A DNA stretch of 64,000 nucleotides, from the NCBI RefSeq assembly GCF_001543325.1, contig NZ_CP013355.1, positions 1,332,001 to 1,396,000 of the forward strand, in the 5' to 3' direction. Both the position numbers and the translations under genes were made by a program. The stretch is from Lutibacter profundi (lineage in GTDB: Bacteria; Bacteroidota; Bacteroidia; Flavobacteriales; Flavobacteriaceae). The notes below the pieces were generated by a model, which saw only the letters and a list, made by a program, of their open reading frames with translations, did not search any database and had not been told where the DNA came from. The first letter of the stretch is position 1. The number at the start of each line of letters is the position of its first letter. Shown one piece after another: positions 46,760 through 57,696 of this stretch.

Positions 46760-47836
46760 TTATTTTACTTTGTGTTGAATATTGATAGATTCTACATGAA
46801 TAGTTCTAAATATTTCTTCAACAAACTCTTTTCTCAGCCCTTTTTCTTCACCATATTCTATCATTTTCATTAAAATATCAGACCATCTTCCACTTTGTAA
46901 AATAGCTACATTCTCTTGTTTCTTTAACCGTCCTATTTGTTCAGCAATTCCCATTCTATCACCTAAAATATCAACAATATTGCTATCTATTAAATCCAAT
47001 TCTTTTCTATGCATATTTAATTTTCGCTGAAAGTCTTCTTTGGTACTACTCACTTCACGAATTTTTAAATCTTTCGTTATCTGATTTAATTGAGCTGGCG
47101 TTACTTGCTGTTTGGCATCACTCCAAGCATTGTCAGGATCAATATGTGTTTCAATCATAAATCCATCATAATTTAAATCTAGTCCTGTTTGCGAAACATC
47201 TAAAAGTGTATCTCTTCTTCCACAAATATGTGAAGGATCTAAAATCAATGGTAAATCTGGAAACTCTTTTTTAAGTTGAATAGCAATATGCCATTTTGGT
47301 TTATTACGGTAATGCAACGAATTGTATGTTGAAAAACCTCTATGAATTACACCTAATTGCGTAATTCCTGCTGTTTTAAAACGCTCTACAGCACCTAACC
47401 ACAATGCTAAATCTGGATTTACTGGGTTTTTAACCAACACAGGCTTATCTACCCCTTTTAAAGCATCTGCTATTTCTTGAACTACAAATGGATTCACCGT
47501 AGTTCGTGCTCCAATCCATAAAATATCTACATCGTGTTTTAAAGCTAGCTCTACATGATTCGCATTCCCAACCTCTGTAGTAATCAACATTCCTGTTTCT
47601 TCTTTTACTTTTTGTAACCAAGGTAAACCTATTTCACCAACTCCTTCAAACCCTCCCGGTCGTGTTCTTGGTTTCCAAATACCCGCTCTAAACACATTTG
47701 TATCTGTATTTTTAAGTTCATGAGCTGTTTTTAAAACTTGCTCTTCTGTTTCTGCACTGCAAGGTCCTGCAATTACAATAGGGTGAGATAAGTTCATATC
47801 ATCTAACCATTTCCTATTTTCTTTTTTAATTTCCAT
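46760..47836 (-). CDS. bifunctional DAHP synthase / chorismate mutase (type II)
   Basis: 358 residues. Residues 1-255 form a class I-beta-like DAHP synthase (PIVIAGPCSAETEEQVL near 20, FRAGIWKPRTRPGGFEGVG near 49, TTEVGNANHVELALKHDVDILWIGARTT near 85, LPLILDPSHICGRRD near 195), condensing PEP and erythrose 4-phosphate. Residues 265-350 are an AroQ-type chorismate mutase helix bundle (RKLNMHRKELDLIDSNIVDILGDRMGIAEQIGRLK). The fusion joins the first step of the pathway to the branch toward Phe and Tyr, fitting its place as the last gene of the operon. It is separated from tyrA by 154 bases with two hairpins, so an internal control point is possible. Confidence 0.93.
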   Translation of the reverse strand: MEIKKENRKWLDDMNLSHPIVIAGPCSAETEEQVLKTAHELKNTDTNVFRAGIWKPRTRPGGFEGVGEIGLPWLQKVKEETGMLITTEVGNANHVELALKHDVDILWIGARTTVNPFVVQEIADALKGVDKPVLVKNPVNPDLALWLGAVERFKTAGITQLGVIHRGFSTYNSLHYRNKPKWHIAIQLKKEFPDLPLILDPSHICGRRDTLLDVSQTGLDLNYDGFMIETHIDPDNAWSDAKQQVTPAQLNQITKDLKIREVSSTKEDFQRKLNMHRKELDLIDSNIVDILGDRMGIAEQIGRLKKQENVAILQSGRWSDILMKMIEYGEEKGLRKEFVEEIFRTIHVESINIQHKVK

Positions 47837-47990: not shown

Positions 47991-48839
47991 CTATTCTATT
48001 CCGTTTAAAATTGTTTTAATATAATTGGTATTGTTCATTATTTCTTTTAATGCTTCATCATTGTTATTTTCTATGTGTAATTTAAATTCTTTTAAATTTT
48101 TAATATACTCATCTAATGAGCGTATAATATTTTCTTTATTTTGAAGAAAAATTGGTGCCCAAGTAGTTGCTGAACTTTTTGCCAATCTCACTGTTGAAGC
48201 AAAACCAGTACTTGCCATATCAAAAATATGTTGTTCGTTCTTTTCAATTCCCAACACTGTTTTTCCCAACATAAATGAGCTCACATGTGATAAGTGAGAA
48301 ACATAGGCTATATGTCTATCATGCTCCTCTGGATTCATCATTTTAATACGCATGTTTAGCTGTTTAAATAAACTCAACGCCTTGTCTAAAATTTTCCAAT
48401 CACTCTTTTCTGTTTCACATAAAATATTCACCTTTTCATCAAATAAATTTAAAATAGCAGCCTCAGGGCCTGAAAATTCAGTACCGGCAAGCGGGTGCGC
48501 AGCCACGTAATTTTTTCTGTTTGGATGCTTTGAAACTTCTTTACAAATTTCATTTTTTACTGAACCTACATCAAAAACTAAGGTGTTTTTAGAAACATTA
48601 TCTAATACTTTTTTAATAACCTTTGGAATTACATCTACAGGAACGGCAACAATTACAACTGAAGCATCTGAGATTTCAGAAAAATTGGTTTCAGCATCAA
48701 TAACACCTAATGATAATGCTTTTTTTACATGAGTTGCATCTGCATCAATTCCATACACTTTATAGCCATTTCGCTTTTTTAAATCTAAGGCTAAAGAACC
48801 TCCTATTAAACCCAATCCTATAACAACTAATTTTTCCAT
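47991..48839 (-). CDS. tyrA: prephenate dehydrogenase
   Basis: 282 residues. The N-terminal NAD domain opens KLVVIGLGLIGGSLALDLKKR; DVGSVKNEICKEV (near residue 91), HPLAGTEFSGPEAA (near 115) and the helical C-terminal domain (HDRHIAYVSHLSHVSSFMLG near 171) match TyrA, which oxidatively decarboxylates prephenate to 4-hydroxyphenylpyruvate. The two His in HIAYVSHLSH are typical. It follows the aminotransferase gene by three bases and should be translated from the same transcript. Confidence 0.95.
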   Translation of the reverse strand: MEKLVVIGLGLIGGSLALDLKKRNGYKVYGIDADATHVKKALSLGVIDAETNFSEISDASVVIVAVPVDVIPKVIKKVLDNVSKNTLVFDVGSVKNEICKEVSKHPNRKNYVAAHPLAGTEFSGPEAAILNLFDEKVNILCETEKSDWKILDKALSLFKQLNMRIKMMNPEEHDRHIAYVSHLSHVSSFMLGKTVLGIEKNEQHIFDMASTGFASTVRLAKSSATTWAPIFLQNKENIIRSLDEYIKNLKEFKLHIENNNDEALKEIMNNTNYIKTILNGIE

Positions 48840-48842
48840 TTT

Positions 48843-50000
48843 TTAATTATTTTTTGTTGTTAATCTTGTTAACACTTCTTTTAAAACTGCTGAATTAACA
48901 CATAATGATGCTCTAATATAACCCTCTCCATTCGTACCAAATACTGTTCCTGGCGTTATAAAAACTTCCTTTTCATACAATAGCTTATCTGTAAACGACT
49001 CTGCTTTTTCTCCATTTGGCAATTTTGCCCAAACAAATAAGCCTCCAATATTTTTAGCATACGTACATCCTAAAGCATCAAAAATTTTCCAGACCAACTC
49101 CCTTCTTTTTCTGTAAATGCTATTTTGCTCTTCAAACCAATTTGCCGGTAGTTTTAGGGCTTCAATTGCTCCTTTTTGAATTCCTAAAAACATGCCTGAA
49201 TCCATATTGCTTTTTACCTGTAATATTGTTTTAATAATTTCTGAAGTTCCTACAACCATGCCAACTCTCCAACCCGCCATATTAAATGTTTTACTAAGCG
49301 AGTTTAACTCAATAGCCACTTCTTTTGCACCGTCTACTTGCAAAATACTTTGTGGATTTTCATTTAAAATAAAACTGTAAGGGTTGTCGTTAACCACTAA
49401 AATATGGTGCTTTTTAGCAAATGCAATTAATTGTTCAAAAGCTAATTTTGAAGCAGTGGCTCCTGTAGGCATATGCGGATAATTAACCCACATAATTTTA
49501 ACTTTTGACAAGTCTTCTTTTTCAATTTCCGAAAAATTTGGCAACCAATTATTGTGTTCACTTAAATTATAATAAACAGGTGCAGCTTCAACCAATTTTG
49601 TAACTGATGCATAGGTTGGATACCCTGGATTTGGAATCAATACTTTATCTCCTTTATTTAAAAAAGCCATTGAAATATGCATTATTCCTTCCTTAGAACC
49701 CATTAATGGTAAAATTTCAGTATTCGGATTTAGCTTAACATTGTAATTTGTTTTGTAAAAATCTGCAATTCCCAATCTAAATTCTGGTATTCCTTGGTAG
49801 CTTTGGTATTTATGAACTCCATCTATTTGCATAGCGTTTTTTAGTGCTGCTACTACCTCTAAAGGTGGTTGTAAATCGGGGCTTCCTATCGCTATATTTA
49901 TAATTGGCTTTCCTGTAGCAATCAAGCCTGCTATTTCTCTCAATTTCTTTGAGAAGTAGTATTCTTTTACTTGCTTTAATCTATCTGCTTTTGGTATCAT
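48843..50000 (-). CDS. class I/II PLP aminotransferase, aromatic pathway
   Basis: 385 residues, fold type I. PLP lysine K237 lies in ELNSLSKTFNMAGWRVG; IAIGSPDLQPP (near 36), NPGYPTYASVTKLVEAAPVYYNL (near 124) and VNYPHMPTGATAS (near 172) are class I landmarks, and the C-terminal R in YIRASLCVN binds the substrate carboxylate. Given its place between pheA and tyrA, the expected role is the last transamination of phenylpyruvate and 4-hydroxyphenylpyruvate or of prephenate. Its start overlaps the pheA end by one base (shared base at 50000), indicating translational coupling. Confidence 0.88.
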   Translation of the reverse strand: MIPKADRLKQVKEYYFSKKLREIAGLIATGKPIINIAIGSPDLQPPLEVVAALKNAMQIDGVHKYQSYQGIPEFRLGIADFYKTNYNVKLNPNTEILPLMGSKEGIMHISMAFLNKGDKVLIPNPGYPTYASVTKLVEAAPVYYNLSEHNNWLPNFSEIEKEDLSKVKIMWVNYPHMPTGATASKLAFEQLIAFAKKHHILVVNDNPYSFILNENPQSILQVDGAKEVAIELNSLSKTFNMAGWRVGMVVGTSEIIKTILQVKSNMDSGMFLGIQKGAIEALKLPANWFEEQNSIYRKRRELVWKIFDALGCTYAKNIGGLFVWAKLPNGEKAESFTDKLLYEKEVFITPGTVFGTNGEGYIRASLCVNSAVLKEVLTRLTTKNN

Positions 50001-50818
50001 TATCTTTTTCCTTTTGAGTATTCACCCAATATTTTTAACATTTCAACTTTATTTTTAATCTCATTTAAAGCATCGTAATAATCTGCATAACTATCAAAAG
50101 TAAAATCGGCAAAAAAAGCGTATTTCCAAGGAGTTTCAATTACAGGCATCGATTGTATTTTAGAAAGATTCAAATGATGTTTTGCCAAAATGGTTAAAAC
50201 TTCAGCTAAACTTCCTGCTTTATGACTTGTAATAAATTTTATGGAAGCCTTATTTGCTGAAACACTGCTTTTAGTTTCTGAATTGGTTAAAATAAAAAAA
50301 CGGGTGGCATTTTCTTTTATCGTTTGAATTTCAGGGGCTATAATTTTTAAATTATATGTTTCAGCAGCCAATGTACTTGCTATTGCTCCAACATTTTTTA
50401 GCTTATTTTCTTGTATTCTTTTGGCAACAACCGCAGTATCTTTATCTTCTATTAATTTAATATGCGGATAATCTTTAAAAAACTTATGACACTGCAACAA
50501 TGCCATTGGATGTGAATACACCTCTTTAATATCTTCTATATGCTGACCTTTTAAAGCCATTAAATTATGACAAATAGGTAAATGGTATTCTCCACAAATT
50601 GAAAGTTGATGTTCATCAATTAATGCATAGTTTGGTAAAATTGCACCGGCAATTGAATTTTCTATAGCCATAATTACAACCTCAGCCTTTTTACTATGTA
50701 ATAAACTAGGCATTTCACTAAACGACAAGCTCTCAACCAAATCAACATTCTTACCAAAATATTGTGCTGCTACAATGTGGTGAAACGACCCTTTAATTCC
50801 CTGTATTGCTACCTTCAT
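50000..50818 (-). CDS. pheA: prephenate dehydratase
   Basis: 272 residues, a stand-alone PDT. PheA converts prephenate to phenylpyruvate. Catalytic-domain marks are VAIQGIKGSFHHIVAAQYFG (residues 3-22), AIENSIAGAILPNYALI (near 51), SHPMALLQCHKFF (near 102), AAETYNLKIIAPEIQTIKENATRFFIL with the family's NxTRF motif (near 150). An ACT regulatory domain follows (ITSHKAGSLAEVLTILAKHHLNLSKIQSMP, near 194), which in this family binds phenylalanine for feedback inhibition. It is first in the operon; transcription of all four genes appears to be controlled by the attenuator upstream, so Phe would act at both the protein and RNA level. Confidence 0.95.
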   Translation of the reverse strand: MKVAIQGIKGSFHHIVAAQYFGKNVDLVESLSFSEMPSLLHSKKAEVVIMAIENSIAGAILPNYALIDEHQLSICGEYHLPICHNLMALKGQHIEDIKEVYSHPMALLQCHKFFKDYPHIKLIEDKDTAVVAKRIQENKLKNVGAIASTLAAETYNLKIIAPEIQTIKENATRFFILTNSETKSSVSANKASIKFITSHKAGSLAEVLTILAKHHLNLSKIQSMPVIETPWKYAFFADFTFDSYADYYDALNEIKNKVEMLKILGEYSKGKR

Positions 50819-50834
50819 TATTTATTTTTTAACC

Positions 50835-50864
50835 AAAAAAAAATCCCGAAATATTTCGAGACTT
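50835..50864 (-). terminator. intrinsic terminator of the pheA leader (attenuator)
   Basis: On the minus strand TCTCGAAAT pairs with ATTTCGGGA (stem within 50844-50861, one G-T pair) and is followed by nine T (50843-50835), 16 bases before the pheA ATG. The left flank AAGTCTC (50864-50858) can alternatively pair with GAGGCTT (50902-50896) at the leader peptide stop, 7 bp with one G-T pair, which would break the terminator stem. Confidence 0.8.
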
Positions 50865-50900
50865 TATTAATTATTTTATTTAAAAAACACATACGAAGCC

Positions 50901-50963
50901 TCATCTCTTATTGCTAAAATAAAAGTAAAAATAGAAGCTATTCCAAGTGTTATTTGTTCTCAT
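50901..50963 (-). CDS. Phe/Tyr-rich leader peptide of the aromatic operon
   Basis: A 20-codon reading ATG to TGA: MRTNNTWNS, then FYFYFYF, then SNKR. Seven consecutive codons alternate Phe and Tyr (TTC TAT TTT TAC TTT TAT TTT), with one Trp codon just before, so the run names the end products of the operon downstream. It starts 17 bases after the -7 box and ends at the proposed antiterminator segment. As in classical Phe and Trp leaders, ribosome stalling on these codons when charged tRNA-Phe or tRNA-Tyr is scarce would expose the antiterminator and let transcription reach pheA. The role is inferred from layout; the peptide itself needs no function. No Shine-Dalgarno sequence is present, as usual in the phylum. 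Confidence 0.82.
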   Translation of the reverse strand: MRTNNTWNSFYFYFYFSNKR

Positions 50964-50980
50964 TATCAGTAATTAGACGA

Positions 50981-51010
50981 CAAATCTATACATTAATTTT
51001 AAAAAAACAA
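50981..51010 (-). promoter_or_regulatory. promoter of the pheA operon
   Basis: On the minus strand TTG (51010-51008) and TAGATTTG (50988-50981) are exactly 19 bases apart, matching the Bacteroidota consensus TTG-N19-TAnnTTTG. Transcription should start near 50974, giving a 156-base leader. Confidence 0.85.
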
Positions 51011-51253
51011 CTTTTTTTTAAAAAAATAAATTTACATTATTGTTTTTTCAATAAAAGATAGTAAAAAATAATTAATTACTAATAAAAACTCATTAATATT
51101 CGTTATTATTAATATTTAAATCTAATTATATGTGTAATAAATAATTTAATACCCTTTTTACTTTCAGCAACGATACTCTTAAAAATATGGTTTCTCTCCA
51201 ATAGCGTATCAAAAAGGAATAAATAACGCTAAATACTATTTCCTATATTTAAC
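51011..51253. other. AT-rich spacer between divergent pheA and wzi units
   Basis: About 240 bases with poly-A and poly-T runs and no reading or structure that I can assign. Confidence 0.5.
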
Positions 51254-55332: not shown

Positions 55333-57696
55333 TCAACTCCATATTCTCTTCCACCAAGGTTTTTTAGAGATGGATTCATTATAACCGTATCCGTAGCCAT
55401 AACCGTAACCATAACCTTTTTCTGAATCGGTATTGTTAATTAAAATAGACATATTTGGCAAGCGTTTATTTTCATACATTATTTTAGGAAAATCTAACAA
55501 TCGTTTATCTAAATAATCGGCTCTTACCACGTAAATAAATAAATCTGCATGATGCCCTAGTAACAATGTATCTGTAACTACATACGTTGGTGCCGTGTCT
55601 ACAATTACATAATCATAGTTTTCTTTACCATAGGCTAGTACTTCCTCAAAACGCCCGTTCATTAACAATTCTGATGGGTTAGGCGCCATAATTCCAGACT
55701 CTAATATATCGAAATTGAATTTTTGAATATGCTCAATAACCTCCGTTACTTTTAAATTAGTATCCATCAAAAAATGAGACAATCCTTTAACTGATTTTGG
55801 CACACCTAAATACTCGGCAATTTTTGGTTTTCGAATATCTGCACCTATCAACAATACTTTTTTATTTGATAAAGCCAGCACAGAAGCTAAATTAATGGCA
55901 ATAAATGTTTTTCCTTCACTAGCAATAGTTGAAGTAACAAAAATAGTTTTTGCCCCTTCTTTAACTCCAGAAAGCATAAAGTTTACATTTGTTCTTAACA
56001 GTCTAAAAGACTCAGCAACACTTCCCCTATCTAAATCTGTTACCACCACTTTGTGTTCAGACTTCGTTCTAGGTATTTCTCCTAAAATTGGTGCTTTCAC
56101 AACTGCTTCTACATCTTTACGGGTATGCACCTTATTATCTAGCAAAAACAATAAGTATATCCAACTAAACGGCACAATTAACCCTACTAATAGCGCCGCT
56201 AAATATACCATTCTCCTTTTAGGTTCAACAGGGGCATTACTACCATAAGCTTTATCTATAATTTTAGCATTGGGTAATGTTACCGCCAATGAAATAGCAT
56301 TTTCTTCTCTTTTTTGTAGTAAATACAAATACAGCGACTCCATAATTTGTTGCTGACGTTGAATATCTCTGTATTCTTTTTCTTGTCTGGGAACAGCTTT
56401 TATTTTTGAGTTAATTCTATGTTCCTGACTTTTAAGTGTATTTAGTGTTATTGCCAATGATGATTTTAAATTAAGCAGACTTTGTATTATCCCCCCGTGT
56501 AATTGTTCAATTTGATCTTCTAAATTTATAATTACAGGATTTTGTTTGCTTGAACTTTTTAATATTCTATTGCGTTCTAAAAACAATTCATTATATTTTA
56601 AAATACTCTCACTTATAGAACCATCTGTTAATCCTAAATTAGCTGGTATTAATTCTTCAATACTATTGGTAATAAACTCATTCATATAATCTACCAGCTT
56701 TAACTGTGTAGTAATATCGAGTATTCTGTTTTCAAGTTCAGCATTGGTTTGTAAAATTAAGGATGCTTCAGAGGCAATATCTGTGAGTTTATTCTTTGTT
56801 TTAAATACTTCAACACCTTTATCAACAGCCGATAATTCTTTGGTAATTATTTCCAATCTTCTATTTATAAATTTATTGGTGTTTTTTGCAATTACACTTT
56901 TATCTTCAACAGCATCATTATTATATTGGGTAACTAAATTATCTAAAATTGCTTGTGCTTTTAATTTAACCGGATCTTTTAATGTTAATTTAATAACACT
57001 TGAATTTTTATTTGCTGGTTGAATTTGGATCTTACTTGTATATAAATCAATTACATTTTTTAGTGAGCTTATTTTAACAATTACTTCATCTCCAGCTTTA
57101 ACTTTATTTATATTTTTAGGTGTAATTATAATATCTCCTATATTGGTACTCATATTCTCTCCAAAAGCATGTTCAGCCATTTTGTTTCCGTCTGCATCTT
57201 CAATTACAAAATTTGTTGGAGATACTATTTTAACTTTAAATAAGGTATCTAAATTGTAAAATTTAAAATCTTTTCTAAAAAAGTTAATTTTAAAAGGAAC
57301 ACTATTTGTGTACATTTCAGATTCTATAACTCTTCCTTGTATAAAATAAGTAACATTAATACCTAAATCTTTTACCACTCTTTCTAATAAAGTTCTAGAT
57401 TTTAATAACTCTATCTCATTGTCTAAAGAGGTTTTAGAGTTTCCTATAAGTCCTAAATCTTCAAAAGCCGATAGTTCTGAAGCTAATCCACCATTATCTT
57501 TATCGTCAATTAATATGGTTGTGGATACTTCATATTGATTTGCGGTATACCTCAAATAAAAAAAGGCTAATGACACCGCTAAAACAACACCTACTACAAA
57601 CCATTTCCAGTGATACAAATACTTTTCAATTTCTTCACGTATATTAATGGATTCGTTATTAAAGTTGATAGAATTTATTGGGTTTTCTTCTTGCAT
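55333..57696 (-). CDS. polysaccharide biosynthesis tyrosine autokinase (Wzc-like)
   Basis: 787 residues. An N-terminal Wzz domain begins with a membrane helix (WKWFVVGVVLAVSLAFFYL, 29-47), is followed by a long coiled periplasmic part (about 240-440) and a second helix near 510 (YLAALLVGLIVPFSWIYLLFL). The cytoplasmic BY-kinase domain has Walker A STIASEGKTFIAINLA (near 590), Walker A' KVLLIGADIRKPKI and Walker B YDYVIVDTAP. The C-terminus carries six GY pairs (KGYGYGY... GYNES), the tyrosine cluster that such kinases phosphorylate, then WWKRIW. It controls chain export with the Wza-like gene 11 bases upstream. The cognate phosphatase is convergent at 52670. Confidence 0.93.
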   Translation of the reverse strand: MQEENPINSINFNNESINIREEIEKYLYHWKWFVVGVVLAVSLAFFYLRYTANQYEVSTTILIDDKDNGGLASELSAFEDLGLIGNSKTSLDNEIELLKSRTLLERVVKDLGINVTYFIQGRVIESEMYTNSVPFKINFFRKDFKFYNLDTLFKVKIVSPTNFVIEDADGNKMAEHAFGENMSTNIGDIIITPKNINKVKAGDEVIVKISSLKNVIDLYTSKIQIQPANKNSSVIKLTLKDPVKLKAQAILDNLVTQYNNDAVEDKSVIAKNTNKFINRRLEIITKELSAVDKGVEVFKTKNKLTDIASEASLILQTNAELENRILDITTQLKLVDYMNEFITNSIEELIPANLGLTDGSISESILKYNELFLERNRILKSSSKQNPVIINLEDQIEQLHGGIIQSLLNLKSSLAITLNTLKSQEHRINSKIKAVPRQEKEYRDIQRQQQIMESLYLYLLQKREENAISLAVTLPNAKIIDKAYGSNAPVEPKRRMVYLAALLVGLIVPFSWIYLLFLLDNKVHTRKDVEAVVKAPILGEIPRTKSEHKVVVTDLDRGSVAESFRLLRTNVNFMLSGVKEGAKTIFVTSTIASEGKTFIAINLASVLALSNKKVLLIGADIRKPKIAEYLGVPKSVKGLSHFLMDTNLKVTEVIEHIQKFNFDILESGIMAPNPSELLMNGRFEEVLAYGKENYDYVIVDTAPTYVVTDTLLLGHHADLFIYVVRADYLDKRLLDFPKIMYENKRLPNMSILINNTDSEKGYGYGYGYGYGYNESISKKPWWKRIWS
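55381..55416 (-). repeat. hexanucleotide repeat coding for the Gly-Tyr tail of the autokinase
   Basis: Six imperfect copies of GGTTAT/GGTTAC/GGCTAC encode (Gly-Tyr)6. The codons alternate between TAT and TAC and GGT, GGC and GGA, so the repeat is kept by selection on the protein rather than by recent slippage. Confidence 0.85.

Follow-up and report, generated by a model that had tools for sequence, protein, structure and literature searches.

The operon for phenylalanine and tyrosine synthesis in Lutibacter profundi is preceded by a short open reading frame (ORF) with an alternating run of Phe and Tyr codons and by an intrinsic terminator, which together very probably form a classical ribosome-mediated leader-peptide attenuator that reads charged tRNA-Phe and tRNA-Tyr together. 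The leader lies on the minus strand of a 64,000-nucleotide stretch of the genome (the window, from whose first letter all positions are counted unless prefixed by C1). It is a new, well-resolved case of an already known type of attenuator, and the conservation of its leader ORF, terminator and antiterminator pairing among relatives supports the interpretation that an earlier note had drawn from this DNA alone.

Layout of the leader and its operon

The leader comprises the following features.

50981-51010, minus strand: Bacteroidota-type promoter, consisting of TTG (51010-51008), 19 bases and TAGATTTG (50988-50981); from the sequence
50901-50963, minus strand: leader ORF MRTNNTWNSFYFYFYFSNKR, 20 codons from ATG (50963) to TGA (50901); from sequence and conservation
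50916-50936, minus strand: control codons TTC TAT TTT TAC TTT TAT TTT, reading FYFYFYF; from the sequence
50934-50955, minus strand: segment 1, the 5′ arm of the 1:2 helix; from the minimum free energy (MFE) fold and a swap test (z -16.7 in 82 relatives)
50882-50902, minus strand: segment 2, GAGGCTT (50902-50896) plus the next bases, partner of segment 1 or 3; from fold and covariation
50858-50864, minus strand: segment 3, AAGTCTC, partner of segment 2 (antiterminator) or 4 (terminator); from covariation
50840-50865, minus strand: intrinsic terminator hairpin (3:4), with T up to 50835; from terminator scan and covariation
50835-50843, minus strand: run of nine T; from the sequence

Behind it stand four genes.

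50000-50818, minus strand: pheA, prephenate dehydratase with ACT domain (PF00800 above its cut-off, PF01842 just above)
48843-50000, minus strand: class I/II aminotransferase (PF00155)
47991-48839, minus strand: tyrA, prephenate dehydrogenase (NF006307 above its cut-off; PF02153, PF20463)
46760-47836, minus strand: DAHP synthase fused to chorismate mutase (PF00793 and PF01817 above their cut-offs)

Every element that the earlier note had read from the letters, namely the promoter, the 20-codon reading, FYFYFYF, GAGGCTT with AAGTCTC, the hairpin with its nine T and the 16-base gap between the T run and the pheA ATG (50818), lies on the minus strand where it had been placed. Besides FYFYFYF the leader ORF holds one TGG (Trp) codon, and 13 nt separate the end of the run from segment 2. 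The fold of 50975-50830 beats 196 of 200 dinucleotide shuffles (z -2.13). Pfam and NCBIfam matches bear out the identities that had been given to the downstream genes (pheA, aminotransferase, tyrA and DAHP synthase), and add to the last of these its fusion to chorismate mutase; for pheA, no NCBIfam equivalog scored above its cut-off in the NCBIfam profile search. The closest named relatives found are Lutibacter metagenome-assembled genomes, with a pheA 81% identical.

Conservation within Flavobacteriaceae

We searched 299 Flavobacteriaceae genomes, 268 of which gave a pheA match; of the 111 matches with the highest scores, all but G048, which lies at a contig edge, supplied an upstream region, giving 110 loci. 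To count as a leader, an ORF had to start with ATG, span 12-45 codons and have at least five Phe/Tyr in a stretch of nine residues; terminators were called by a fixed rule. The conservation of run and terminator that the earlier note had proposed to look for was found: a Phe/Tyr leader precedes pheA in 109 of the 110 family loci, with L043 as the one locus without it, and leader and terminator occur together in 107. Because the best-scoring set is biased to close pheA genes, we added 30 hand-chosen weak matches, one of them from a genome (G174) that also occurs in another sample; L340 had no pheA start and was left out, and 28 of the 29 assessable loci carry the leader (L326 does not).

A covariance model built from the family leaders gives a match in 80/80 named relatives, at most about 420 nt ahead of pheA, a result that is not independent of relatedness because of that origin of the model, some of the 80 being the same genomes as rows of the alignment described below. 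In these relatives the model gives a further 24, weaker matches (E 0.0003 to 0.1), located away from that site or on the opposite strand, and the order of the four genes is kept in 79 of the 80. In the L. profundi genome itself the pheA leader scores 98.3 bits and the next match 35.3 bits over part of the model, among 40 matches up to E 10; a second full copy of the leader in this genome was rejected, as no other site in it fits the model well.

For further comparison we used a set of 128 family leaders, which omits the duplicates L111, L112, L113, L115 and L118 as well as L074 and L106, where no terminator was called by the rule though inspection by eye shows a stem in each. A -7 element of the form TAnnTT[TA]G stands within 75 nt 5′ of the leader ATG in 116 of these 128, against 10/128 in a control stretch 200-275 nt upstream, and has a TTG 17-22 nt ahead of it in 80/128; the strict form TAnnTTTG within 60 nt of the leader was found in 20/109. 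The promoter consensus given for Flavobacterium johnsoniae is TAHHTTTG, outside which the third-base G of the L. profundi promoter falls, and the distance given there from the -7 element to the start is 4-5 nt (PMC6847099). Applied to the -7 element here, this spacing predicts an RNA start at about 50976.

Three mutually exclusive helices

Helices were evaluated on an alignment (A2) of 82 of the 128 family leaders, the rest being too similar. A scan of its column pairs recovered the terminator (columns 137-146 with 160-169) and the antiterminator (columns 74-79 with 139-144); the other helices that it returned are A/T-rich pairings of the aromatic run and the T tract. The earlier note had asked for compensatory changes between 50896-50902 and 50858-50864, and for this 2:3 helix 96.3% of cells are paired (90.5% in shuffles) and 42 are double-changed (13.8 in shuffles), each value being reached in 0/500 shuffles. 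Slid versions of the same helix pair in 21-44% of cells, and a double change is present in 4 of its 6 pairs, a count equalled in 29/500 shuffles. The terminator helix 3:4 is paired in 97.0% of cells across the 82 relatives, with 60 double-changed cells and double changes in 8/10 pairs.

Moreover, swapping segments among the 82 leaders weakens 1:2 (z -16.7), 2:3 (z -11.6) and 3:4 (z -11.7) and leaves a control pair unaffected (z 0.1), although shuffles and swaps leave relatedness in, so all these helix statistics are inflated by it. RNAalifold on the alignment reports the terminator only, because mutually exclusive helices force a choice. The two-state layout of pairing and hairpin in the earlier note stands as described and is made fuller by a 1:2 helix, which appears in both the MFE fold and the swap test. 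The leader thus matches an attenuator in having exclusive 2:3 and 3:4 helices, a protecting 1:2 helix and a terminator between the ORF and pheA.

Ribosome position and proposed mechanism

In 65 of the 82 leaders, 11-12 nt lie between the end of the last aromatic codon and segment 2, which is the spacing that a stalled ribosome would need to cover segment 1 and leave segment 2 free. Relative to where segment 2 begins, the stop codon starts anywhere between 9 nt upstream and 28 nt downstream. We modelled a ribosome stalled in the run by holding 30 nt around it unpaired in the folds. With RNA up to segment 3, this mask yields 2:3 in 82/82 leaders, and with a ribosome masked at the stop codon the full RNA folds into 3:4 in 82/82 and into 2:3 in none. 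In the absence of a ribosome, the full RNA forms 1:2 in 72/82 and 3:4 in 81/82, and RNA up to segment 3 forms 2:3 in 60/82 and 1:2 in 20/82. At equilibrium the full RNA with a stalled ribosome still gives 3:4 in 71/82 and 2:3 in 11/82; antitermination must therefore be kinetic, set by the order of synthesis, because equilibrium folding favours the terminator despite the stalled ribosome. On such modelled folding energies, the fate of the leader without translation is not deducible.

In the proposed mechanism, RNA polymerase would start just below the promoter, with a ribosome trailing it through the leader ORF. When Phe-tRNA or Tyr-tRNA is scarce, the ribosome would stall in FYFYFYF and cover segment 1, so that the 2:3 antiterminator could form and the operon be read. 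When both charged tRNAs are ample, it would reach the stop codon in or beside segment 2 and cover that segment, and the 3:4 terminator would form instead. For this leader we infer transcription, translation, stalling and the sufficiency of either amino acid alone.

Distribution beyond the family

Leaders with at least six Phe/Tyr in nine residues precede pheA in 27/31 and 9/16 loci of two samples of Bacteroidia outside the family, i.e. 36 of 47, with L295 and L302 of the 16-locus sample as borderline cases. A pheA match was found in only 33 of the 119 genomes of the Bacteroidia class search. The 34-locus class sample includes three loci of other classes (L143, L167 and L168), which we counted apart. 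L310, the sole sampled locus of the same order but another family, has no leader.

In other classes of the phylum the leader was found in 3 of 29 loci, which are L143, L167 and L168. None was found in L172-L177 or in L258-L277; a missing leader in L172-L177 and in a 20-locus set is weak evidence because the true gene start is sometimes uncertain. The pheA genes of L143, L167 and L168 are 43-47% identical to the query, against at most 40%, where listed, for the other 26 loci. In wider stretches around the three (L349-L351), an aminotransferase and a DAHP synthase follow pheA in 3/3 and tyrA in 2/3, and the other sampled members of their families have a more distant pheA without the leader. By these comparisons, operon and leader look as if they had moved together by transfer into these three lineages.

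In the leaderless loci L135 and L137, 2 bases separate the pheA match from the end of an upstream frame of 416-419 codons; L364 has the end of a very similar frame upstream. We take this frame to be aroA, and so pheA is not the first gene in these three loci. In a small, hand-chosen sample of related loci, a DAHP synthase lies 3′ of pheA in 13/13 leader-bearing loci (in one of them it is 2 kb past tyrA, and in two neither aminotransferase nor tyrA intervenes) and in 0/7 leaderless loci within the stretch taken.

Which signal the leader reads

The aromatic runs of the 82 leaders hold 378 Phe, 193 Tyr, 34 Trp and 51 other residues, with no Leu or Cys. At least three Phe and at least one Tyr are present in 128/128 family leaders, a universality that is partly selected because our leader finder demands Phe/Tyr-rich ORFs. 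Phe and Tyr look interchangeable within the run, as would be expected if a shortage of either may stall the ribosome. An attenuator that senses Phe only, with Tyr codons as filler one mutation away from Phe codons, would fit the roughly 2:1 excess of Phe over Tyr and the precedent of the enterobacterial pheA leader, which reads Phe only. We consider this distinctly improbable: besides the 128 family leaders, 30/30 leaders of the 34-locus sample contain Tyr, the operon makes both amino acids, and other residues one base from Phe codons are scarce in the runs (Ser 11, Ile 2, Val 1, neither Leu nor Cys) next to 193 Tyr. A sensor that also reads Trp through its single Trp codon, and so makes the common DAHP synthase step depend on Phe, Tyr and Trp alike, is somewhat less improbable but still unlikely. 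A Trp codon occurs in 82/128 family leaders and often falls within the aromatic run, yet it is absent from 46/128, is present in only 9/30 leaders of the 34-locus sample and could be maintained by the 1:2 helix, of which it is part in many leaders; moreover, one codon is a weak stall site. Returning to the reading of Phe and Tyr together, the near-universal presence of the leader in the sampled family loci suggests that ribosome stalling for want of either amino acid may switch the pathway on.

Alternatively, the conserved hairpin could be a terminator run by a T-box, a riboswitch or a protein, with the ORF incidental or encoding a small protein, and trans action of a short hydrophobic peptide is conceivable in principle. 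Among T-box models, none reached its gathering threshold in the window and none matched 50780-51080 up to E 10; as no riboswitch match was found either, a T-box or known riboswitch was rejected. Across leaders, the length, ends and stop position of the peptide vary, whereas the Phe/Tyr content, the spacing and the helices are constant, and the codons suit the operon in this leader as well as in those for His, Trp and Ile/Val/Leu elsewhere in the genome; this makes control by another regulator very improbable. Reinitiation at pheA, an idea taken from PMC4833913, was also rejected, as 82 nt, including the terminator, separate the end of the leader stop codon from the pheA ATG. A chance origin, in which T/A-rich sequence happens to read as Phe/Tyr beside an ordinary terminator, has in its favour that the region is AT-rich and that a terminator scan over 12 kb found 5 sites with 5.2 expected; this level is that of chance, so the hairpin by itself is little proof. 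However, at least six Phe/Tyr in a nine-residue window of a short ORF upstream of pheA were found in 107/110 family loci against 3/110 on the opposite strand and 22/1100 in dinucleotide shuffles, and this conservation, with the co-variation of the helices, refutes chance to the point where it is scarcely credible. The classical attenuator reading both charged tRNAs is the account that we retain.

Relation to known leaders

The enteric pheA leader encodes a Phe-run peptide and has an exclusive antiterminator and terminator; the leader described here resembles it (RF01859, Phe_leader) in these parts and in its place before pheA, and differs in appearing to read Tyr too. It does not match the model (20.9 bits against a threshold of 55; E 0.28). 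Enteric thr and ilv leaders also read more than one amino acid of their pathway through a single leader, with other amino acids and other operons. The operon here, unlike that behind the enteric Phe leader, also holds tyrA and DAHP synthase, and it belongs to a phylum, Bacteroidota, described as being without Shine-Dalgarno sequences (PMC6847099). Within this phylum, Rfam holds a tryptophan peptide leader RNA (RF01692, Bacteroid-trp), a leader-peptide system for Trp where ours is for Phe and Tyr; it was first listed as a likely cis-regulatory RNA motif (PMC2864571), and the pheA leader gave no match to it up to E 10.

In Flavobacterium psychrophilum, 64 structured 5′ transcribed regions were reported in 2021, with ‘strong clues’ of leader-peptide attenuation ahead of amino-acid operons, and elements upstream of pheA and hisG were noted as conserved in other genera of Flavobacteriaceae (PMC9723704). 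The pheA element of that report concerns the same gene and family and is transcribed there, and the text consulted mentions neither a Phe/Tyr run nor helices, nor any occurrence outside the family. The earlier note had known of no characterised example with this alternating codon run in this phylum: among the open-licence papers listed, none gave a full description, but a conserved 5′ element of pheA had already been flagged. Short ORFs reminiscent of leader peptides are mentioned for Bacteroides (PMC7366714). In 2010, the authors of a case from Firmicutes wrote that, to their knowledge, leader peptides had until then been unshown outside Proteobacteria and Actinobacteria (PMC2965389), in a main text that does not contain the words Bacteroid- or Flavobacter-. 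Among the matches listed for partial terms in the open-licence literature, we found no fuller account of the Phe/Tyr leader, of the helices it forms or of where it occurs. For attenuation of this kind in the phylum, what we found was Rfam's Trp family and passing remarks in two transcriptome studies.

The pheA leader is thereby a clear and testable case of ribosome-mediated attenuation, apparently reading two amino acids at once. If this is true, ribosome and polymerase must keep close to each other at such leaders without Shine-Dalgarno sequences, and the control of aromatic amino-acid synthesis could become predictable from sequence across a large group. We lean slightly towards a broader proposal, in which leader-peptide attenuation of amino-acid synthesis would be general and old in Bacteroidia, which initiate translation without Shine-Dalgarno pairing. 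Its aromatic member would be a dual Phe/Tyr sensor that sets the common entry step and both end branches from a single leader; leader and operon would have passed together from one lineage to another, and ribosome and polymerase would have to be closely coupled in this phylum.

Other candidate leaders in the same genome

Further candidate leaders were found ahead of other amino-acid genes of L. profundi.

312 to 255 nt before the HisG match C1:556779-557243, minus strand: His leader MNFIQSHHHHFYTYTQVS with terminator (L341), upstream of hisG
Upstream of the trpE match C1:1217729-1218160, minus strand: Trp leader MKTNNLNMNWWWNSLKQ with terminator (L342); from the sequence
C1:2469536-2469601 and 2469676-2469741, plus strand: tandem Ile/Val/Leu-rich leader ORFs before ilvD, within L348 (C1:2469300-2470200)
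C1:424295-424206, minus strand: short ORF ending in MATTITITL (L347), ahead of a long frame that carries a homoserine dehydrogenase domain

None of these four leader stretches (His, Trp, ilvD and homoserine dehydrogenase) reaches an Rfam threshold; the trpE leader resembles RF01692 with 40.3 bits, below the threshold of 49. A four-His pattern has 48 matches in the genome, among them the His run of MNFIQSHHHHFYTYTQVS. Each of the two ilvD leaders has its own terminator, and from their arrangement they are a possible double attenuator in series. Of the loci for homoserine dehydrogenase, L345 and L346 stop short of the gene start and L347 was taken for one of them; its short ORF resembles a Thr/Ile leader and has no clear terminator. 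Within the window, a 787-codon ORF on the minus strand (55333-57696) carries a GYGYGYGYGYGY run near its end, and presumably encodes a polysaccharide-export tyrosine kinase.
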